A stretch of 55,171 nt of DNA, from NCBI GenBank assembly GCA_020853775.1, contig JADYYH010000112.1:1-55171 (forward strand), given 5' to 3'. Origin of the DNA: Nitrospira sp. Its GTDB lineage: Bacteria > Nitrospirota > Nitrospiria > Nitrospirales > Nitrospiraceae. The number at the start of each line of letters is the position of its first letter. Within the stretch, counting starts at the first letter, position 1. A program made the translations under genes and the position numbers. The notes beneath the pieces were generated by a model. That model searched no databases, was not told where the DNA came from, and saw only the letters and a program-made list of their open reading frames with translations. Shown piece after piece: positions 27 to 33,633 of this stretch.

Positions 27-1268
27 TTACAATTGACAGACCCCCGATTGCACGGTGGCCACGGAGTCACCGGCCACCGTGGCCAGAATCTTGTAGTGCC
101 CTAATCCGAGTTCCTTGCCGTAGGCTTCTCCGACCAGCACATCCTGCACATGCTGGTGGTCGGAGGCCCGGAAGTAGGATCGCCCCTCTTTCAAACCATC
201 AACCTCATGTCCTTCCAATGCCTTGATGAGCGCGGGCGCCTCGGGTGTGCCTGCCCGCTGAATCGTTTCAAGGATCTGCGTCATGGCAGCGTACCCCAGA
301 TAACAGCGCGACGTGGGGGCATGACTGTATTTCTCCACGACACCTTGGATAAATCGTCTGGATCCATCGGTATTCACTTTGGGGTCCCAGATAAGCCCCC
401 AGATACCGGCGTTGTTCGCATAGCCCAGAGGACGACCAATTTGTTCGCCGGCGATCATCCCGCCGACACCGATTTTGTCTTTGGCTAACTCCAACGTGGT
501 GTAGGCTTTGAGCGCGTGGACCAGATCCCATCCGTAGAGATTCAACAGCACCAGCGTCGGTCGTTTGTCCTTGGCCGCAGCGAGTGCCGACGTGAACTCT
601 GTCGAACCGAACGGCATCAGTGTTTCGCCCACAAATTCCACCCCATGGGTGAGAGCGGTCGACACCATCGCCTGGGCCATCGCTTTTCCGCCCAACGAGC
701 TGGTCGTGATCATGAACCACCGGGTGCCGTAGGCTTTCACCAGCTGCGGAACAACGGCCTGCGCCAACATGGACGCATGGGGCATGAAAACGAAGGTGTG
801 GGAGTTACAAGCGGCCCCGGACAATTCAGGCAAATGTGACCCCGTGACCATGAACAGCTTGTTCTCTTTCTTCGCGAACTCCGACACAACGAGCGCGCAC
901 TCAGCATTGAATGTTCCCATCAAGACATCGACACGATCGTCTTGCACAAATTTCGTAGCGGCCTTGAGGGCTGCATCTGGGTTGGACGCATCATCCGCCT
1001 CCAGGATCGTCACCGGCCTCCCCAATACCCCGCCACGCTTGTTGAAGAGATCTACCGCGACGTTCGCCCCATGCACATCGTGGATAGAAGATGTCTTATA
1101 GGGGCTCGATAACGGGTCCAGAATACCGACTTTGATCGGCTCTGCCGCCAAGGCGGCTGAGCGCACAAAAGGCACATCGAGCAGGTGCCCGGCGAGATCG
1201 CCCAAGAGCAGCGCGCCACCACTCATAGCGGAGACGTGCAGAAAGCGTCGTCGCGAGATAGCACTCAT
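27..1268 (-). CDS. ABC transporter periplasmic solute-binding protein (Peripla_BP_6 / LivK type)
   Basis: A 413-residue protein of the branched-chain amino acid/amide/urea-type solute-binding family. The N-terminus has a twin-arginine signal (SRRRFLH at residues 5-11) followed by a hydrophobic stretch and an Ala-rich cleavage region near residue 41, so it is probably exported folded by Tat. The mature part opens with IKVGILDPLSSP and continues with the family pattern of NKRGGVLGRPV and a two-lobe fold. The ligand cannot be read from sequence; amides, urea or short amino acids are all possible. No permease or ATPase genes lie on the right; any partners would be to the left, outside the window. 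An AG-rich ribosome site (AGGGTAGGA) precedes the ATG. Confidence 0.85.
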   Translation of the reverse strand: MSAISRRRFLHVSAMSGGALLLGDLAGHLLDVPFVRSAALAAEPIKVGILDPLSSPYKTSSIHDVHGANVAVDLFNKRGGVLGRPVTILEADDASNPDAALKAATKFVQDDRVDVLMGTFNAECALVVSEFAKKENKLFMVTGSHLPELSGAACNSHTFVFMPHASMLAQAVVPQLVKAYGTRWFMITTSSLGGKAMAQAMVSTALTHGVEFVGETLMPFGSTEFTSALAAAKDKRPTLVLLNLYGWDLVHALKAYTTLELAKDKIGVGGMIAGEQIGRPLGYANNAGIWGLIWDPKVNTDGSRRFIQGVVEKYSHAPTSRCYLGYAAMTQILETIQRAGTPEAPALIKALEGHEVDGLKEGRSYFRASDHQHVQDVLVGEAYGKELGLGHYKILATVAGDSVATVQSGVCQL

Positions 1269-23579: not shown

Positions 23580-25922
23580 TCACGCCATCGAGACCGGATC
23601 GACGTCAATATCATACCGGAGACCACCCCGACGGGATTCCCGCTCCAGATCCTCGCGCGTCCGCATGGCGATCTCCTTCCCGGCCTCCAGAGAGCTGGAC
23701 TTAATCAGAATCTGCCAGCAGTATCGACCTCGCCTGAGAACATGCGAGGCCGGAGATGGCCCCAAGACCGCCACCGTCCGTTCTCTGCCTGCAGCGTGGG
23801 CTCTCAATAACGCCGCCCAACGCTCGGCAGCGTGACACACTACCGCCTCCTTCGTCCCGGACACATCCAATCTGACCAGGCAAGTCCAGGGCGGATACTG
23901 GAGCATCTGCCGGAAGGCCTGCTCCTGCTGCACAAACACCTCTTCGTCACCGGAGGCCAGGGCCATGATCGCATGATGGTCCGCGAGGCGCGTCTGTATA
24001 AGAAGCTGGCCACCAACAGAGGCAGGACGGGCCAGAGCGGCAGCGTCCAGAAGGGCATGATACATCCGTTCCGCGGAACGGAAATCGGGAACGTGGAGAC
24101 CGGCATCTGCATCGGGCAGCGCGACGAACAACGCCCGCCCGTGAAGACCCAGACGAAATATCATCTGTGTCCCGATCAGAATATCAATATCCCCAGCGGT
24201 CAGCAGCCGGTGCAAAGCCCGCGCATCGGCAGGACGACGAATCGTTTCGCCATCCACTCGTCCCACCCGCGCCTGGGGAAACTGGCGTCGGACGGCCTCC
24301 TCGACACGTTCCGTTCCCGACCCCACCGGTTCCAACTTCAGCGATTGGCAGCGGGGACAATGTTCGGGCACCGGTTTGGTTCGGCCGCAGTAGTGGCACC
24401 GGATATGGTTGCTTCGCCGAAAGAAGGTCAACGCGACACTACAGGCATCGCACTGCGGCATGGCCCCGCAGTCCCCGCAATGGAGGACACTCGCAAAGCC
24501 TTTGCGATTCAGGTACAGAATCGACAAGGCGTTCTGCCGCAACGCGCCACGCAGTCCTTCGATCAGGAGAGGCGACAATACCGTGCCTCCTCCGGCGTCT
24601 CTGGGAGAGTTCTTCATATCGATCACGTTCACTATCGGCAGTTGCTCTGGGGCACGATACACACATGCCGTCAGGCGTCCTTCCTGAACCGCCGACAGAC
24701 TTTCGAGAGACGGATGATTCGAGGCGAGCACCAACACTGCACCTTCGCGGGAAGCACGATAGTGCGCAACCTCTCGGGCATGATAGCGAGGCACCTGCTC
24801 TTCTTTGAGGGACGCATCATCCTCCCCTTCCACCCACACAAGACCTAGCTGCGCCAGGGGAGCGAAGACCGCCATGCGGGTGCCGATCAGAATTTTGACG
24901 GAGCCCTCTTGCGCCGCCTGCCACACCGCTGCCCGCGCTTTCATCGATAAACCGCTGTGCAGAAGCATCGGCCGTTCGCCTCTTGCGGCCAGAAATCCAG
25001 CCAATCGACCCGCTTGCTCGACATCGCCCGCGAGAATCAACACCTGCTTCCCAAGGCGAATGATGGCCTGGGCCGCCTGGATCAGACACCACTGTCTGGT
25101 GCGGTGGGCTCCCTGCAAGAGCACGGGAGAAAGGGTCCTCTTCGCACGTGCCTGTTCCAGAACGGCCGGCCACAGCATGGCCTCGGGGGGATTAGGTTCA
25201 ACACTATCAGCAGTCTCTCCCGGCTCCATAGGAAGACCGACTGCTGACGTGTCGCCATGCAGCGTTGCGGGACGGTGGGTTCTGGAAGCGACCGGTTCAT
25301 CACAGCGGCCCACCAGCCCCTGCTGAACCAGTGTGTGCAAGGCGAGTGTTAAACGGGCATTGTCCCCCTTCAGAAACGTCGTCGCCATGATCCCTTTGGG
25401 ACGCCGGCGCAAGCGGGCGAGTAACTCTGTTTCGGTCTCTCCCAACGGCTCCACGGAGGAATGCATTGCCAGGCCCTGCGCTGTCAGCACATATCGAGGC
25501 TGAGGCGGCCGCGCTCGAGCGACAGGAGGCAGAACAAGCTTGATACATTGCCCCCATGGTGCGGCATACCGCTCCGCCACCCAGTGACTGAGTGCGATTT
25601 GCTCGCTGGTCAGCAGGTGGTCCGATGACGCCGCGCTCAGCGAACGAATGGTCTTGAGGCCCTTTTGGGGTGCGCCAGGTGGGAGCCGGGGATACACCGC
25701 AATCACGAGGCCGTGAAGATCTTGGGAGCCAAACGGCACAACCACTGAACGTCCGACGACGACCCGGTCCTTGAGTTCTGGCGGGATGATATAGGTGAAC
25801 GGTCGGTGAAGCCGACGTGGCAATACCACGTCAACATAGGCAGGAACAGGCGCAGGAACCATCGGGCTGGTTCGCTGCGAGCGAGGGTCGAGCATGCGGC
25901 ATTCTAACAACACCGGCTCCAT
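23580..25922 (-). CDS. priA: PriA-family primosomal protein N' without recognisable helicase motifs
   Basis: Up to 780 residues; the start is unsure (ATGs at 25922, 25895 and 25862; the family region begins at YVDVVLPRRLHRPFTYI). The 3'-DNA-binding N-terminal domain, the eight zinc-binding Cys (482, 485, 491, 494, 509, 512, 522, 525) and the C-terminal domain ending in DIDVDPVSMA are well kept. The ATPase motifs are not: Walker A is GAHRTRQW (271-278), DEEH is EGED (365-368), the GSATP motif is ASNHPS, and motif VI (QVAGRAGR in E. coli) is DAAALARP. It should still recognise forks and restart replication as a scaffold but not hydrolyse ATP. Confidence 0.88.
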   Translation of the reverse strand: MEPVLLECRMLDPRSQRTSPMVPAPVPAYVDVVLPRRLHRPFTYIIPPELKDRVVVGRSVVVPFGSQDLHGLVIAVYPRLPPGAPQKGLKTIRSLSAASSDHLLTSEQIALSHWVAERYAAPWGQCIKLVLPPVARARPPQPRYVLTAQGLAMHSSVEPLGETETELLARLRRRPKGIMATTFLKGDNARLTLALHTLVQQGLVGRCDEPVASRTHRPATLHGDTSAVGLPMEPGETADSVEPNPPEAMLWPAVLEQARAKRTLSPVLLQGAHRTRQWCLIQAAQAIIRLGKQVLILAGDVEQAGRLAGFLAARGERPMLLHSGLSMKARAAVWQAAQEGSVKILIGTRMAVFAPLAQLGLVWVEGEDDASLKEEQVPRYHAREVAHYRASREGAVLVLASNHPSLESLSAVQEGRLTACVYRAPEQLPIVNVIDMKNSPRDAGGGTVLSPLLIEGLRGALRQNALSILYLNRKGFASVLHCGDCGAMPQCDACSVALTFFRRSNHIRCHYCGRTKPVPEHCPRCQSLKLEPVGSGTERVEEAVRRQFPQARVGRVDGETIRRPADARALHRLLTAGDIDILIGTQMIFRLGLHGRALFVALPDADAGLHVPDFRSAERMYHALLDAAALARPASVGGQLLIQTRLADHHAIMALASGDEEVFVQQEQAFRQMLQYPPWTCLVRLDVSGTKEAVVCHAAERWAALLRAHAAGRERTVAVLGPSPASHVLRRGRYCWQILIKSSSLEAGKEIAMRTREDLERESRRGGLRYDIDVDPVSMA

Positions 25923-26049: not shown

Positions 26050-27609
26050 CTACGAGCCAGGGGCAGGCGCTGGGGGGATCCCATCAGCGGGAGAAGCGGG
26101 CGCCCCGGCATCAGGAGCGCTCGGGCCACGATCGGGCGTCACATCCGACGGAGTCGGTCTAGACGGCACCTCCGACGCCGGCACGCTCGCCTGATTCACC
26201 GGCACTGAACTCATTTGGTTGTACGTAAACTGTGTCGCCCCCGATGACTTGTCATCAACCGAGGCTTTCACCGGTTGCGCTGCAATTGGCTCTTCGAGTG
26301 ACTCTAATACGACTTCAATGCGGCGGTTTTTCTTGCGTCCCTCTTCAGTCCCGTTGCTCGCCACAGGACGGCTGGCTCCATACCCCACGGCAGACAGCTT
26401 CGCGGAATCCATTCCACCTTTCTCGACCAGATAGCGTACGATCTCTGCCGCACGGGCCTTGGATAATTCCCAATTAGTTGGAAATACGTCCTTCAAGGAC
26501 GGGCCGATTTCCATGTTATCGGAATGACCTTCGACGCGGACCTGCTGGCCGCCGGCGGTCGTTGTGAGGTACGCTGTCAGTTCCTCAAGGATGGGTACCC
26601 CCGCGGGTTTCACTTTGATTTCCCCGGACTCGTATTCCAACTGGTCCGCCAGGTCGTCAAGATTGAGCCTCTGACTTCTTCGAGCGCGTTCGATCTTTCC
26701 CTTTCCGGTCGAACGGGCTTCACTCGCATCAGAGACAGACGCATCTGCCTTCGAAACCATCACGGGCTGCACGGCAGCCGCCTGATGATCAAGCTCTCCG
26801 CCGTCAGATTGCATGGCTTCGAGGGGCACGCCATGCTTGGAACGAAGACGATCTCCCACGAGGGCTCGGGCCGAAGCCTTGGACAATACCGCAGTGGCCG
26901 TGTGAGGTTCTGTCGCGAGCACCCTCACTTCGCCGATCTTTCGCTCGGGCAGGCCGCCTCCCGTACGGAACACTTCCATATAGTCACCGGACCGGAGGCC
27001 ATCGTCCTGCCCTTTATCGAGGTATACCACATTGCCCTGCGACACGAGCGACATGTGTTTATCAGCCTGTAGCTCGACGATCATACCTTCCACATCTGGC
27101 CCTGAAGACACAGGCTCGCTGATTTCCTCTGCAGAAGGAGGTGTAAAACGCATGACGGGATCGCCGGGGGACAGGGGGGCGTACGATCGTACCACCTGCA
27201 CACCCACCAGCACCGGATCCAACTGAACGACTTTCACAACACCGACCCGGTTGATGACATACCCGAGATACTGCTTGGTGATGGGATGGAACACCTTCCG
27301 AGACCACCGATAGACGGTGTACAAATCACCGATCGCGGCTTCGCCCGGATTTTTCAGTTTCAGATACAGCGTATCCGTGCCGGACCATCCCAGCATCATC
27401 CGGTTGCCGGACAATTGGTTATCGCCGGTAATGACATTGATGACACCCTCAATCGGCATCTCCTGTCGAATTGACCCGGCGGCATAGATCAATGCTGCGT
27501 CACCCAGTCGCACGCTTTGCGCATTCTGAGCGTAAACAGGAATGGCTGTTACAGCCATGAGACTGCACGAGAGGATGGTCAGACTGGCGCGCATAAATAA
27601 TATCCTCAT
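26050..27609 (-). CDS. OmpA-family peptidoglycan-associated protein
   Basis: About 519 residues from ATG 27609 (MRILFMRASLTIL); an in-frame ATG at 27594, preceded by GAGGAT, is an alternative. A signal peptide ends near PVYAQ. The N-terminal 270 residues hold repeated beta-rich segments (GDLYTVYRWSR, GDYMEVFRTGG) like those of LysM-adjacent outer-membrane assembly proteins, but I do not name the domain. The OmpA domain at about 330-440 has the peptidoglycan-binding pattern VRVEGHSDN, NWELSKARAAEIVRYL and NRRIEVVL. A Pro/Ser/Ala-rich tail of about 60 residues closes it. It should anchor the outer membrane to the cell wall. Confidence 0.85.
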   Translation of the reverse strand: MRILFMRASLTILSCSLMAVTAIPVYAQNAQSVRLGDAALIYAAGSIRQEMPIEGVINVITGDNQLSGNRMMLGWSGTDTLYLKLKNPGEAAIGDLYTVYRWSRKVFHPITKQYLGYVINRVGVVKVVQLDPVLVGVQVVRSYAPLSPGDPVMRFTPPSAEEISEPVSSGPDVEGMIVELQADKHMSLVSQGNVVYLDKGQDDGLRSGDYMEVFRTGGGLPERKIGEVRVLATEPHTATAVLSKASARALVGDRLRSKHGVPLEAMQSDGGELDHQAAAVQPVMVSKADASVSDASEARSTGKGKIERARRSQRLNLDDLADQLEYESGEIKVKPAGVPILEELTAYLTTTAGGQQVRVEGHSDNMEIGPSLKDVFPTNWELSKARAAEIVRYLVEKGGMDSAKLSAVGYGASRPVASNGTEEGRKKNRRIEVVLESLEEPIAAQPVKASVDDKSSGATQFTYNQMSSVPVNQASVPASEVPSRPTPSDVTPDRGPSAPDAGAPASPADGIPPAPAPGS

Positions 27610-28159
27610 ATTGATCACACCTAGGAGGGTTGTCTGTAGCAACCTTAGCAAACAGCAGAGGCTTGTCAAGAAACCGGCCGGACAGCAATGGTTTGAATCA
27701 GGTGACCGTGGATGGTATCGTGAGGTTGAGGCCGAATACTCTCGCGGAACCACCATTGAGCGGGGGACGAATGGGAACGGAGAAACGACGCATCAACACG
27801 CAGATGCCTCGACGAACGAAGGTTCACCCATCCACGCCCTTGGCATCGGAATGGGATGTCGGTGGCGGATCTCCCCCCTCTGGCCTGAGAACTCCGGCCA
27901 GCCACATGAGGTCGGCCTCCTCGCATGATCATTCGACCAACGATGTTTCGCCAGCATCGCGCCCAGAGCCCCCAAACAATCCCCGCGAATCGTGACAATC
28001 GGCGCTCGCTCCTAACTGCTGGACAGTATTCACATTCTAGGACTATCGGGACTAAAGCCCTAGGTCCTTTGTGCGCTTGCTATTAAAAATGGGCAAGGGC
28101 TAAGATTCCGACCTCCTAAATAGCCTTATAAGCCCTCAAACCTGTTGAGGTTCGAGCCA
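27610..28159. promoter_or_regulatory. Regulatory region upstream of the nuo operon, with a structured inverted repeat
   Basis: A 550-base gap between the divergent OmpA-family gene and nuoA, without a credible gene. A nested inverted repeat spans 28039-28068: outer arms AGGAC/GTCCT, inner arms GGGACT/AGCCCT with one mismatch around AA. Just beyond it, TTGCTA (28077-28082) and TAAGAT (28101-28106), 18 bases apart, are a weak -35/-10 pair (4 of 6 each) about 55 bases before nuoA. The ribosome site TTGAGG lies 9 bases before the nuoA ATG. Confidence 0.35.
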
Positions 28160-28543
28160 ATGGCCGGTTCCGAGCTCCTCTTAGAGTATCTCAGTCGATA
28201 TTTTCCGATACTCGTCTTTGTATTCATCGCACTGGCGTTCGGCGCCGGCACGCTGCTCATCAGCTACTTTGTTCAACCCAAGTACCCTGAACCAGAGAAA
28301 CTTTCGACGTATGAGTGCGGCTCTGAACCTTTTTCTGACGCCAGAATGCCGTTTCCTGTGCGTTACTATATTTTCGCGATGCTGTTCGTGATCTTCGATG
28401 TGGAAGTCATCTTTCTTTATCCCTGGGCCATTGTCTTTAATAAGATCGGCCTCATCGGCCTGGTCGAGATGTTGATCTTCATCGGTCTTTTCCTCGTCGC
28501 CTATGTTTACGCCTGGCGAAAAGGAGCATTGGAATGGGATTAA
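28160..28543 (+). CDS. nuoA: NADH-quinone oxidoreductase subunit A
   Basis: 127 residues from ATG 28160; GAGG lies 9 bases upstream. Three membrane helices, with the family motif [20 protein letters not shown] in the first loop (the Cys in YECG is the conserved one) and [12 protein letters not shown] in the second helix. It is a small membrane subunit at the junction of the proton-pumping arm and the quinone site. First gene of the operon; its end overlaps nuoB by 10 bases. Confidence 0.95.
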
Positions 28544-29061
28544 TTCAGCTGGGCGGCCACGATAAAGACGGCTCACCCGACGTCATTACTCTCACGGTTG
28601 AAAAAGCTGTGAATTGGGCCAGAAAAGGATCCTTATGGCCAATGACCTTCGGCCTGGCCTGCTGCGCCATTGAAATGATCGCGGCCGTCTCATCCCGCTA
28701 CGATATGGATCGTTACGGAGCCGGCGTGTTTCGGGCCTCCCCCCGCCAATCCGACCTCATGATCGTCGCAGGAACCGTTTGTCGGCGCATGGCCCCGGTG
28801 ATTCGTAAAATTTACGATCAGATGCCCGAACCGAAGTACGTAATTGCCATGGGCTCCTGCGCCACCTCGGGAAACATTTACGACAGTTACAGTGTGGTTC
28901 AGGGAGTCGATCGATTCGTGCCGGTCGACATTTATGTGCCGGGATGTCCTCCCACTCCAGAAGCCCTCTTCGACGGCATTCTGAAATTGCAGGAGCGCAT
29001 CATGCAAAAGCGCGTGTTCCTTTCCCAGCCCAAGGAAGTGAAGGACGCCCTGAAGGTCTGA
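28534..29061 (+). CDS. nuoB: NADH-quinone oxidoreductase subunit B
   Basis: 175 residues. The four ligands of cluster N2, the electron donor to quinone, are all present: Cys43 and Cys44 (the adjacent pair in LACCAIEM), Cys109 (GSCATSG) and Cys138 (VPGCPP). It sits in the hydrophilic connecting module next to NuoD. It overlaps nuoA by 10 bases and nuoC follows after 18. Confidence 0.97.
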
Positions 29062-29079
29062 CGGACGGAAATCGACGGC

Positions 29080-29577
29080 ATGAGTCAGCTAGCAAAACGT
29101 ATCGAGGACACCTTTCCCGGCACCTGCACGAAAGTGGTGGAGTGGCGCGGGGACGTGGCCGTCACAGTCAAGCGTGAGAACTTGCACGATGTAGCCCGGT
29201 TTCTGCGGGACGACCCCGCCTTGCGCTTCGACTACATCGTCCATGTCAGTTCGGTGGACTGGCCTGACGACGAGGAGCGTTTTGAAGTGGTGTACGAGGT
29301 CTATTCGATTCGGACCCGACAGCGTATCCGCCTGAAATCACGGGTCCCGGAATCGGACTGTATCGTAGACTCCTTGACCGACGTCTGGAAAGGCGCTGAT
29401 TTCATGGAGCGCGAAGTGTACGACATGATGGGGATCCGGTTTCGCAACCATCCTGATCTTCGTCGCATCTTGATGCCGGACGAATACGAGGAAGGATATC
29501 CGTTGCGCAAAGATTTTCCACTTCGTGGCAAAGGTTGGCGCGACACATTCGAATTTTTGGATGAACCGACCCGATAG
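29080..29577 (+). CDS. nuoC: NADH-quinone oxidoreductase subunit C
   Basis: 165 residues, a separate NuoC rather than the NuoCD fusion of E. coli. The 30-kDa subunit signature ERxVYDMMGIxFxxHPDLRR is readable (EREVYDMMGIRF, HPDLRRIL), followed by DYPLRKDFPLRG-like sequence (GYPLRKDFPLRG). It is a structural part of the quinone module. nuoD starts 28 bases later. Confidence 0.96.
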   Translation: MSQLAKRIEDTFPGTCTKVVEWRGDVAVTVKRENLHDVARFLRDDPALRFDYIVHVSSVDWPDDEERFEVVYEVYSIRTRQRIRLKSRVPESDCIVDSLTDVWKGADFMEREVYDMMGIRFRNHPDLRRILMPDEYEEGYPLRKDFPLRGKGWRDTFEFLDEPTR

Positions 29578-29605
29578 GAAACAGGTTTTCTCTCACTGAA
29601 CGATC

Positions 29606-30853
29606 ATGTCACAGTTCGAAGATCAAAGAACGACAGTCTATAAGGTCGATCCCGAGCATCCTGAGAGCGAGACGCTTCCCACGCTCCGGACCGAAGAACT
29701 CCTGCTCAATATGGGCCCTCAACACCCCAGCACTCATGGTGTGCTGAAGGTGATTCTGGAGTTGGAAGGCGAGCGATTGGTCAAGTCGACTCCGGTTATG
29801 GGCTTTCTTCACCGCGGCGTGGAAAAGCTGGCTGAAGAAGGGACGTACCATCAGTTCATCCCGCATACGGATCGGCTCGACTACGTCTGCGCGATGTATA
29901 ACAACTTTGCCTACTGCCGGGCGGTTGAGAAATTGATGAACATCACCGTACCGGATCGCGCTGAATACTTGCGTACGATTGTCGCGGAGATTCAACGTAT
30001 CATCGGCCACCAATTCTGGCTGGGTACGCAAGCGCTTGATATCGGTGCGATGACCGTGTTCTTTTATTGCTTCCGGGATCGGGAAATTCTACTGGACTGG
30101 TTTGATGAACTCTGCGGCGCCCGTCTGACAACCAGCTGGTATCGCATCGGAGGTGTGGAACGCGACTTTACGCCGTCGTTGTTTGCCAAACTGAAGCAAT
30201 TCCTCGATTACTTCCCACCGAAGATCGACGAATACGTCATTTTCCTTGAGAAGAATCGTATCTGGCTAGCACGCACGAAGGGCGTGGCCGTTATTTCAGC
30301 AGAAGATGCGTTGAGCTTTGGCTTGAGCGGACCAACGTTGCGAGGGTCCGGCGTTGATTTCGATCTTCGCAAATACGAACCCTATTCCGCATATCCCAAG
30401 TGCGAATTCAGCGTCCCTGTCGGCAAGAACGGCGACACCTACGATCGGTACTGGATTCGCGTGCAGGAGCTCTACGAGAGCGTCAAGATCATCCGCCAGT
30501 GCCTGGAGCAGATCCAGGACGGGCCGATTATGGCAGACGTACCCAGCGTGACTCTCCCGCCAAAAGAACGCGTGTTCACGAACTTGGAATCTATGATTCA
30601 GCAGTTCAAACTGTTCTCGCAGGGATTCAATGCACCTCCCGGAGAAATCTACTGCGGGACTGAAGCGCATAAAGGCGAGTTAGGTTTCTATATCGTCAGT
30701 ACGGGCGGCGGGAAGCCGTACCGGCTGAAAATCCGCGCTCCCTCGTTTATTCACATGGGAGCATTCGATCATATGTCGAAAGGCTATATGATCTCCGACG
30801 CCGTGACGATTTTCGGAACGTACGACATCGTCATGGGAGAGTGTGACAGATAA
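29606..30853 (+). CDS. nuoD: NADH-quinone oxidoreductase subunit D
   Basis: 415 residues, the 49-kDa subunit that forms the quinone-binding cavity with NuoB. The family patterns are clear: MGPQHPSTHGVL with the quinone-headgroup His, GFLHRGVEKL, and the C-terminal DIVMGECDR (usually DIVFGEVDR). It is related to the large subunit of NiFe hydrogenases but lacks the metal-binding cysteines. The gene is followed by an 80-base gap where E, F and later H would be expected in some other layouts. Confidence 0.97.
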   Translation: MSQFEDQRTTVYKVDPEHPESETLPTLRTEELLLNMGPQHPSTHGVLKVILELEGERLVKSTPVMGFLHRGVEKLAEEGTYHQFIPHTDRLDYVCAMYNNFAYCRAVEKLMNITVPDRAEYLRTIVAEIQRIIGHQFWLGTQALDIGAMTVFFYCFRDREILLDWFDELCGARLTTSWYRIGGVERDFTPSLFAKLKQFLDYFPPKIDEYVIFLEKNRIWLARTKGVAVISAEDALSFGLSGPTLRGSGVDFDLRKYEPYSAYPKCEFSVPVGKNGDTYDRYWIRVQELYESVKIIRQCLEQIQDGPIMADVPSVTLPPKERVFTNLESMIQQFKLFSQGFNAPPGEIYCGTEAHKGELGFYIVSTGGGKPYRLKIRAPSFIHMGAFDHMSKGYMISDAVTIFGTYDIVMGECDR

Positions 30854-30862
30854 GCATATTGA

Positions 30863-30901
30863 GAGTGGCGAGTGCGGAATTCTGAATTTCTCACTTCACT
30901 C
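30863..30901. repeat. Imperfect inverted repeat between nuoD and nuoG
   Basis: In the 80-base gap, GAGTG (30863-30867) faces CACTC (30897-30901), with a second, offset pair (GAGTG 30870-30874, CACT 30892-30895) and a repeated GAATT in the centre. It looks like a small palindromic unit of the REP type rather than a terminator, since no T run follows. It marks the only large gap of the operon. Confidence 0.35.
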
Positions 30902-30933
30902 CAAACACTTATAACTGAGTACTAGGCCAAAGT

Positions 30934-33633
30934 ATGGGTTTGAAACCAGCGACCAATCCCGACGTTGAAGCCGCGACCATTGAACTGTCTATTGACGGAC
31001 GAACGGTCTCGGCCAAGGATGGCGTCTCCCTTTACGATGTGATCGCCAGCACCGGCAAAATTATCCCTGCCATGTGCTACCACTACACCTTCGATCCGTT
31101 CGGGTCGTGCGGAATGTGCCTCGTGATGCAGGAAGGGAAGAAGGCTCCGGTCCGATCCTGCACTGCCAAGGCCGCTGCCGGCATGGTAATCAGGACCGAC
31201 GGTGACGACCTTTTCGCCGCCCGAAAGAAGGCAGTCGAAAAACATCTTTCCGTCCATCCCCTGGACTGTCCGGTCTGTGACGCGGACGGGCACTGCGAAC
31301 TTCAGGACATGGCATTTCAACATGGCGTCACCAATCTGGCCAACGCCAAACAAAAGTTCATTCCGGAAGACACTCGTAGCCTGGTGCTGGACTTCAACAT
31401 GAACCGCTGCATCGCCTGCGCGGAATGCATCAACGTCTGCAAAGACGTGCTGATGATCGATGCACTGCAATTCATGAAGAAGGGCGGCTTCAACCAGGTT
31501 GTGGCCAAGGGAGACCAGCCGCTCGCGTGCGAATTCTGCGGGGATTGCTTGGCCGTGTGTCCAGTCGGTGCCATCACGAACAAATATTCGAAATATCTCT
31601 ACAAGCCGTGGCAAATGAAGAAGACCACGACCACGTGCAACTATTGTGGCGACGGTTGCCAAATGCACCTCGAAACGAAAGACACGGAAGTCGTTCGCGT
31701 CACGTCGCCGCTTTCCTGGAAAAACAAATGGGGCGACCGGTCAGAAACCGCCAAGGGACATGGCGGACTGTGTGTTCGGGGACGATTCGGATTTCAATAC
31801 ATCGATAGTCAGCAACGACTCAGGCAACCACTGGTTCGCACCGGTGACACGCTGAAGGAAACGCCCTGGCTCGATGCCATGCAGGCCGTCATCGATCAGT
31901 TGTCAGAGATCCACCGCAAACACGGCCCGGAATCGATTGCCGGACTCATCACAGCCCGCTGCACCAACGAAGAACTCTACTTATTTCAGAAGCTCATGCG
32001 TGGCGGTTTCAGGACCAATCAACTCGACAGTAGCGCCCGGTACGGCCACCTGAATTACGTGCACGCCGTCCGACATGCCGTCGGCATCGGCCGACCGCTC
32101 AACGATTGGGAAGATCTGACCAAGGCCAAGGCTGTCCTCGTCATTGGTTCCAATATTACGGAAACCAATCCACTGACCGCCGTCCGCATTAAAGAAGCCA
32201 TCCGTGTCTATCACGCGCAAGTGATCGTCGTCGATTCATCGAATACGAATATCGCCCAACTGGCCTCCCATCCACTCCTGGTGAAGCCGGATACGGAATC
32301 ATTGCTGATCGATGGTCTGGTTAAAGCCGTCATCGAACAGGATCTGGTTGATGAATCCAGTACGAACCAACACCCCCAGGCATTTGCAGCTTTGAAACAA
32401 GCTGTAGATCAAGTGTCCCTGGACGATGTATCGCGGGCGACCGGGGTATCGGTCGAACAGATCCGCGAGGTGGCTGCCATTTTTGCGGAAGCGCCGCGAG
32501 CCGTGGCATTGTGCGCAGAGGGCATCGTCCGCCGTCCCAACGGATACGAGAATGTCCTCAAGCTCATTGACCTCGCATGGGTCACCGGAAAATTGGGGCA
32601 ACCAGGATCCGGTGTCACGACCGTCACCGAGGAGGTGAATGAACAGGGCGCCATCGACATGGGTGTGGCTCCTGAGTTCCTTCCAGGGCAGGCTCGCTTC
32701 GACGATCCTGGCGCACGTGAACGGTTCGGGAAGGCGTGGGAAGTGACTCTTCCGGCGATCGGCACTGGCGCCAATCTTTCTGAGATTTTCGCCCGCATTC
32801 ACAAGGGCCAAATCAAAGCGCTGTATGTCATCGGGGAAAACCCACTGGCGACACTGCCGGCCTCCATGGATGTGAAAGGGGCCCTCGGCAAGCTGCAACT
32901 GCTGATCGTTCAGGACCCGTTTCTGACCGAAACGGGCCGTATGGCACATGTGGTACTCCCAGCGGCCACCTATGCGGAAAAAGATGGGACGTTTACCAAT
33001 CTTGAAGGAAAAGTACTGCGTGTCCGCCAGGCGGTTGATCAAGTCGGCGAAAGCCTGCCGGACTGGCATATTATGACGGCCTTAGCCAACGGCCTCGGTT
33101 ACGAATGGCCCTATCAGTCACCGCAGGATGTGCAGAACGAGATTATGAAGCTGCTCCCAGGTTACTACAACCTCGGTCAGCCGCGCCGCATTTCTCCCTC
33201 AGCTGACACCTATCTCTCCAACGGCTATTCTGCCGATGTCGCCACTCGATACCGGCGAAAGTCGGCCGTAGACGACCACTCACGGCCATTTACCCTGGTG
33301 ATGGGCCAAGTTCTCTACCATTCCGGGAAAATGTCCACGCAGGCGTCAGGGCTCATCAACATCGAGCCCAACAACGGGCGCGTACGAATGAATCCGGCCG
33401 ATGTGGAAAAACTTGGCCTGAGCGAACAATCCACTGTCCGCTTGACCTCGCAGCAAGCATCTGTGCAGGCGGGAGTGAAAGCAGACCCGGATATCCAAGC
33501 TGGATCATGCTTTTTCCCCGAGCATTTTAATGAGCCTCCAATAAAAGATTTGATGACGCCCGAAGTCGATGCCGTGACAGGTGTGCCGTATTTCAAATCG
33601 ACGCGTGTAAAGATTGAAAAGGTTGGTGCGTAA
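30934..33633 (+). CDS. nuoG: NADH-quinone oxidoreductase subunit G, formate-dehydrogenase-like form
   Basis: 899 residues. The order of cluster motifs is: [2Fe-2S] Cys48, 59, 62, 76; the His-Cys3 cluster His108, Cys112, 115, 121; then two full CxxCxxCxxxC sets, Cys159-169 and Cys199-209; then CxxCxxxC at 235-242 with a later Cys in GLCVRG, and a molybdopterin-oxidoreductase-type body. E. coli and Thermus NuoG have only part of the second set, so this one has room for one extra [4Fe-4S] cluster, as in formate dehydrogenase alpha subunits. The FdhA catalytic Cys/Sec position is Gly here (DSSARYGH), so it should not be a formate dehydrogenase. nuoE and nuoF, its usual NADH module partners, are not beside it. 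Confidence 0.92.
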   Translation: MGLKPATNPDVEAATIELSIDGRTVSAKDGVSLYDVIASTGKIIPAMCYHYTFDPFGSCGMCLVMQEGKKAPVRSCTAKAAAGMVIRTDGDDLFAARKKAVEKHLSVHPLDCPVCDADGHCELQDMAFQHGVTNLANAKQKFIPEDTRSLVLDFNMNRCIACAECINVCKDVLMIDALQFMKKGGFNQVVAKGDQPLACEFCGDCLAVCPVGAITNKYSKYLYKPWQMKKTTTTCNYCGDGCQMHLETKDTEVVRVTSPLSWKNKWGDRSETAKGHGGLCVRGRFGFQYIDSQQRLRQPLVRTGDTLKETPWLDAMQAVIDQLSEIHRKHGPESIAGLITARCTNEELYLFQKLMRGGFRTNQLDSSARYGHLNYVHAVRHAVGIGRPLNDWEDLTKAKAVLVIGSNITETNPLTAVRIKEAIRVYHAQVIVVDSSNTNIAQLASHPLLVKPDTESLLIDGLVKAVIEQDLVDESSTNQHPQAFAALKQAVDQVSLDDVSRATGVSVEQIREVAAIFAEAPRAVALCAEGIVRRPNGYENVLKLIDLAWVTGKLGQPGSGVTTVTEEVNEQGAIDMGVAPEFLPGQARFDDPGARERFGKAWEVTLPAIGTGANLSEIFARIHKGQIKALYVIGENPLATLPASMDVKGALGKLQLLIVQDPFLTETGRMAHVVLPAATYAEKDGTFTNLEGKVLRVRQAVDQVGESLPDWHIMTALANGLGYEWPYQSPQDVQNEIMKLLPGYYNLGQPRRISPSADTYLSNGYSADVATRYRRKSAVDDHSRPFTLVMGQVLYHSGKMSTQASGLINIEPNNGRVRMNPADVEKLGLSEQSTVRLTSQQASVQAGVKADPDIQAGSCFFPEHFNEPPIKDLMTPEVDAVTGVPYFKSTRVKIEKVGA

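Follow-up and report, generated by a model that had tools for sequence, protein, structure and literature searches.

The only PriA of a Nitrospira lacks the catalytic helicase motifs and is probably an ATPase-free scaffold for replication restart

In the window (the whole 55,171-nt stretch of Nitrospira sp. DNA that was analysed), the priA gene occupies an open frame of 802 codons in total, 780 of them counted from the ATG at 25922, and the frame holds no internal stop. Two further in-frame ATGs are present (25895 and 25862). No obvious ribosome-binding site is found at any of the three, and residues 1-22, the start region, are disordered in the AlphaFold model. The product is assigned to PriA, the protein that in other bacteria allows stalled replication to resume, by NCBIfam TIGR00595 (392 bits against a cut-off of 230), and the Pfam models PriA_3primeBD, Zn_ribbon_PriA and PriA_C each score above their cut-offs; the Pfam search reports no helicase domain in the protein. 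Table 1 gives the coordinates of the domains and of the former helicase motifs. Directly upstream of priA lies a gene for an OmpA-family protein (26050-27756, reverse strand), and NADH dehydrogenase (complex I) subunit genes (28145-33633, forward strand) and a two-component pair are also located nearby. Among the neighbours scanned in the window there is no other replication gene and no helicase gene.

Table 1. Features of the Nitrospira priA gene (positions within the window)
Feature	Positions	Strand	Residues	Sequence	Basis or state
priA, helicase-dead PriA	23580..25922	-	780 aa from ATG 25922
3'-end DNA-binding domain (3'BD)	25527..25832	-	31-132		Pfam PF17764, E=2e-20
Winged-helix region (predicted)	25299..25499	-	~142-208		position and secondary structure of the model
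Former motif I (Walker A)	25083..25121	-	268-280	LLQGAHRTRQWCL	alignment
Former motif II (DEEH)	24816..24848	-	359-369	LGLVWVEGEDD	alignment
Post-motif-II loop	24765..24815	-		ASLKEEQVPRYHAREVA	presumed position of the E. coli aromatic-rich loop; RYHAR kept
Former motif III (GSATPS)	24702..24728	-	399-407	LASNHPSLE	alignment
Cysteine-rich region, eight zinc-binding Cys	24348..24479	-	482-525		alignment and Pfam
Former motif V	24138..24173	-	584-595		GTQM kept, KGHDF lost
Former motif VI	23991..24053	-	624-644	LLDAAALARPASVGGQLLIQT	QVAGRAGR lost
PriA C-terminal domain	23595..23891	-	678-776		Pfam PF18074, E=2e-15

Alignments of the protein with intact PriAs, including that of E. coli, define what has become of the motifs. 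In motif I, GVTGSGKTE is replaced by GAHRTRQW, which is one residue shorter and has R276 in the place of E. coli K230. Motif II has changed from VIDEEHD to WVEGEDD, motif III from LGSATPS to LASNHPS, motif V from GTQMxxKGHDF to GTQMIFRLGLH and motif VI from QVAGRAGR to DAAALARP. Thus, where an active SF2 DNA helicase carries a Walker A GxGKT, a DExH box, the SAT of motif III and the QxxGRxGR of motif VI, the Nitrospira protein has GAHRTRQW, VEGEDD, SNH and DAAALARP. The original prediction, that all helicase motifs are replaced, holds for motifs I, II, III and VI and for the KGHDF half of motif V, but is slightly too strong, since the GTQM of motif V, motif IV (NRKGFA), motif Ic (GTR) and the RYHAR sequence are retained. 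Its companion statement, that the eight cysteines and the ends of the protein are well kept, is borne out: C482, C485, C491, C494, C509, C512, C522 and C525 all align with the zinc cysteines of E. coli PriA (C436-C479), and both the 3'BD and the C-terminal domain exceed their Pfam cut-offs.

Could an active PriA nevertheless be hidden elsewhere, either in the protein or in the genome? Neither GxxxxGK[ST] nor GK[ST] occurs anywhere in the sequence of the protein, so the Walker A has not moved to another position. Nor does the genome, rated 100% complete, contain a second PriA or a second PriA N-terminal domain, intact or otherwise; the other TIGR00595 matches are short helicase-core stretches within other large ORFs, two of which are RecG-model ORFs (one over the RecG cut-off, the other Mfd-like). 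The catalytic motifs are therefore lost from the sole copy, as in a PriA pseudohelicase (pseudo-PriA), a kind first shown for Deinococcus. In the search of relatives, PriA is present in 57 of the 61 genomes, with one copy per closed relative save for a single weak, sub-threshold domain match in G214. This second match is to the PriA 3'-binding domain and falls within an ORF of 361 aa (G214:C1:1042434-1042661) in a genome assembled as one contig. No PriA was found in G107 (same family, 2.0 Mb, 99% complete), G040 or G053, not even when the profile used was that of helicase-dead PriA; priA may have been lost altogether (in a reduced genome) or may fall in a gap of the assembly.

The AlphaFold2 model of the protein (pLDDT 90.2, pTM 0.88) has the PriA fold. 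Five PriA structures rank at the top of its structural matches (Z 26-34), the best being fork-bound E. coli PriA (8fak_H; Z 34, rmsd 2.5 Å over 632 residues), and the next fold is that of Mfd (Z 22). The model fits fork-bound PriA better than the ADP-bound form (Z 34.0 against 27.6), as if pseudo-PriA were locked in the fork-bound state. However, the model of an intact gammaproteobacterial PriA, made as a control, prefers the same form (Z 39.8 against 36.7); the modelled conformation is therefore uninformative on motif loss and the idea was dropped. When the helicase core is compared with RIG-I and DEAD-box structures, the control reaches Z ~26-28 and the pseudo-PriA only ~16, a difference that may arise from a changed arrangement of the lobes or from mere divergence. 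In the alignment, no residue of the Nitrospira protein matches W186, which belongs to the winged-helix linker motif of E. coli PriA, and of four PriB-contact residues compared, two are not the same as in E. coli, so that the partner contacts are not those of the E. coli enzyme.

The protein evolves under constraint. Over the whole protein, pairs of pseudo-PriAs give dN/dS values of 0.13-0.33, with the minimum in lobe 2 and the zinc region in most Nitrospira pairs and values of about 0.11-0.45 in lobe 1, against 0.07-0.12 overall and 0.02-0.06 in lobe 1 for intact PriA (two pairs with measurable dS). The lobe 1 core of pseudo-PriA is thus partly relaxed, though not free of constraint. Mean pairwise identity within the order is 0.43 for the whole protein, 0.26 for former motif I and 0.40 for former motif VI, and lies above the average in GTR (0.64), the RYHAR loop (0.63), NRKGF (0.70) and the zinc region (0.51); in the intact relatives of the class, motifs I and VI reach 0.90 and 0.79. 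Such a pattern is that of a protein whose motor has been lost and whose DNA-binding scaffold has been retained. The earlier proposal of a protein under selection without ATPase function agrees with dN/dS well below 1, with the retained zinc cysteines and with conservation throughout the order, the lack of ATPase being itself a prediction from the motifs.

The Walker A is absent from every PriA of the order that is readable at the motif, closed genomes included. The replacement is also found in single-contig genomes (G001, G004, G007, G009 and G024), and the PriA of the Nitrospira moscoviensis chromosome is likewise without a Walker A. In a search of a named collection, the motif is missing from all eight Nitrospirota matches and present in all 72 from other phyla. 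Across the phylum, 164 PriAs cover motif I, with GK[ST] in 57, absent in 106 and one copy frameshifted, numbers that come from a non-exhaustive sample with some loci picked for their low score and are not frequencies. Pseudo-PriAs occur in four families of the order, in three more families of the class (f6, f8 and f10) and in ten families of another class, with intact PriAs between and beside them. Wherever the sequence of a pseudo-PriA spans the zinc region, the full set of eight cysteines is present. The alignment over Nitrospirota proposed in the original prediction thus supports the independent or wider case that it had envisaged. In one family of the order (f4; L011, L012, L014 and L016), the DEEHD box is kept while the Walker A and motif VI are lost. 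This looks like an intermediate state, so the motifs were not all lost in a single step. In one draft genome (G105), an apparent frameshift at motif I of an intact gene (L079) mimics the loss of the Walker A, which calls for caution when motifs are surveyed in draft assemblies.

How many times was the motor lost? On an RpoB tree of 40 genomes, it takes four changes to explain the state of PriA, of which well-supported branches make at least three unavoidable, and a single origin of all pseudo-PriAs is rejected (p-AU 0.0015), with a borderline result for a single origin within the class (p-AU 0.04). The PriA tree, built with the motif columns removed, places the two large pseudo-PriA groups apart, with f26 and f36, intact relatives of the outer group, next to it, but gives no grounds for rejecting a single origin (p-AU 0.48). 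Given this disagreement, transfer of an already dead priA stands as the alternative, and repeated independent losses are favoured over it. It is conceivable, at slightly less than even odds, that the motor was lost at least three times independently in one phylum with the fork-binding scaffold kept each time, so that in DciA-type bacteria the PriA helicase would be generally expendable and restart would be an ATP-free step of recognition and recruitment.

The explanation that best accounts for these observations, with a probability of roughly 0.78, is that the sole PriA is a pseudohelicase acting as an ATPase-free scaffold for fork recognition and DnaB reloading, as in Deinococcus radiodurans PriA. 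Replication restart in these bacteria probably works without a PriA motor. From the loss of its motifs, the protein is predicted to be without ATPase activity, with none of the usual ATP binding or hydrolysis, and to unwind no DNA; it would instead act as a structure-specific platform. The 3'BD, the winged helix, the former helicase lobes, the zinc region and the C-terminal domain would together clamp an abandoned fork or D-loop, with a pore of zinc region, lobe 2 and C-terminal domain holding the lagging-strand ssDNA, and the bound complex would recruit the replicative helicase DnaB, probably with the loader DciA. Where the lagging strand is double-stranded as far as the junction, the fork would either need another helicase (RecG or UvrD-type) or not be served. 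We infer both fork binding and the recruitment of DnaB/DciA; by analogy, the simplest reading would be that Nitrospira PriA performs the recognition and recruitment half of the reaction with DciA-DnaB as its client. The relaxed lobe 1 and the partner contacts that differ from those of E. coli count against a scaffold, as do the fairly complete genomes G107 and G040, in which no PriA was found and the protein may be dispensable, unless the gene is hidden by assembly gaps.

Alternatively, the motor may have been split off, with a separate helicase (UvrD/Rep type, RecG or another SF2 enzyme) serving as an obligate partner that unwinds DNA together with pseudo-PriA. Candidates for such a partner are at hand, as UvrD-type helicases occur in 41 of 41 genomes, all those with intact PriA included, and RecG in about 20 of the 22 pseudo-PriA genomes. 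However, neither is enriched where the motor is lost, two genomes in each category lack RecG (G145 and G164 with intact PriA, G214 and G251 with pseudo-PriA; Mfd-like match only, by manual reading) and no helicase gene adjoins priA among the neighbours scanned in the window, so that a split motor appears unlikely. The loader DciA is found in 40 of the 41 genomes, this Nitrospira among them, and its near ubiquity leaves no contrast from which a tie between motor loss and DciA could be read. None of the three (DciA, UvrD-type helicases, RecG) tracks the loss of the PriA motor. If RecG only polices PriA, its loss would be expected where the PriA helicase is dead (PMC10870727); this is not seen. 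Its retention in most pseudo-PriA lineages argues instead for a role of RecG beyond restraining the PriA helicase. Among the 41 genomes of the phylum sample, none of which has a PriC above cut-off, there is likewise no sign that UvrD-type helicases or PriC were gained to compensate.

It is considerably less probable that the former ATP cleft has been repurposed, with a new conserved role in binding a ligand or a protein and a function beyond restart. Such a role would fit two candidate conserved stretches of the genus Nitrospira, WVEGEDDxSLKEEQxPRYHARE and TRxWCL (the latter in place of GKTEVY), and pairs within the genus are 93% identical in former motif II and 89% in the following loop, against 71% over the protein. 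However, former motif I is not conserved outside the genus (identity of 0.36 in the family and 0.26 in the order), and the motif II stretch adjoins the loop that couples DNA binding to the ATPase in E. coli, so that no new role is needed to account for its conservation. A decaying relic, in which priA has lost its function and the gene is on its way out, is very improbable: the long branches of the PriA tree, the few genomes without PriA and the relaxed lobe 1 could be read as decay, but dN/dS is far below 1, the frames are full-length in nearly all relatives, the zinc cysteines are all kept over the order and beyond, and most genomes (57 of 61) have retained the gene. Finally, a sequencing error, a pseudogene or a contaminating contig can be dismissed, for although this genome is a 121-contig draft with a contamination estimate of 4.6% and the frameshifted draft copy L079 does imitate the loss, the same replacement is present in closed genomes and independent assemblies, with conserved new residues.

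Most bacteria have conserved the helicase activity of PriA, yet E. coli can do without it under laboratory conditions, which raises the question of why it is kept. The weaker part of the original prediction is that the Nitrospira protein changes how replication restart is thought to work: the loss is real, but forks are already known to be restarted by ATPase mutants of E. coli PriA (cited in PMC4504706 and PMC10175261), and loss of the motor therefore fits the existing mechanism. In E. coli, PriA-PriB restart in vivo needs no PriA ATPase, and fork binding reshapes PriA into a pore around the lagging-strand ssDNA (PMC10175261). Intact and dead PriAs side by side in one phylum, probably through independent losses, amount to a natural experiment, which separates the parts needed for restart (the fork-binding domains, the zinc region, GTR, the RYHAR loop and NRKGF) from those that serve the motor only. 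Moreover, Nitrospira are major nitrite oxidisers, comammox bacteria included, whose DNA repair has barely been studied.

An ATPase-free PriA is already known from actinobacteria, alongside Deinococcus-Thermus; what is new here is the extent of the phenomenon, the more complete loss of motifs and the evidence of repeated loss within a phylum. No report of an ATPase-free PriA in Nitrospirota was found in the literature searched, a body that excludes most subscription journals. The actinobacterial proteins (NCBIfam PRK14873 models) are annotated as having no detectable helicase motifs and form a separate subfamily, as the Nitrospira protein scores 43-164 bits against PRK14873 and 453 against the ordinary PriA model PRK05580, a comparison of model scores rather than of individual motifs. 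With the PriAs of E. coli and Klebsiella pneumoniae (8fak, 4nl4 and 6dgd), it shares all domains, the fold and the eight zinc cysteines. Those proteins, however, are active 3'-5' helicases with intact motifs and have PriB, PriC, DnaT and DnaC as partners, whereas in the Nitrospira phylum sample PriC is not detected and the loader is DciA. The closest parallel is with D. radiodurans PriA, which shows neither ATPase nor unwinding activity but binds DnaB, and ssDNA and forks almost like E. coli PriA (PMC4504706). For the Deinococcus protein it is motifs I and II that are stressed (GKT to GRT; PMC4504706), whereas the Nitrospira protein, from a different phylum, has a shorter Walker A and a replaced motif VI, with motifs I, II, III, V and VI all gone in their canonical form. 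The two are nonetheless alike in combining degenerate Walker A and Walker B motifs with DNA-binding domains that have been kept.
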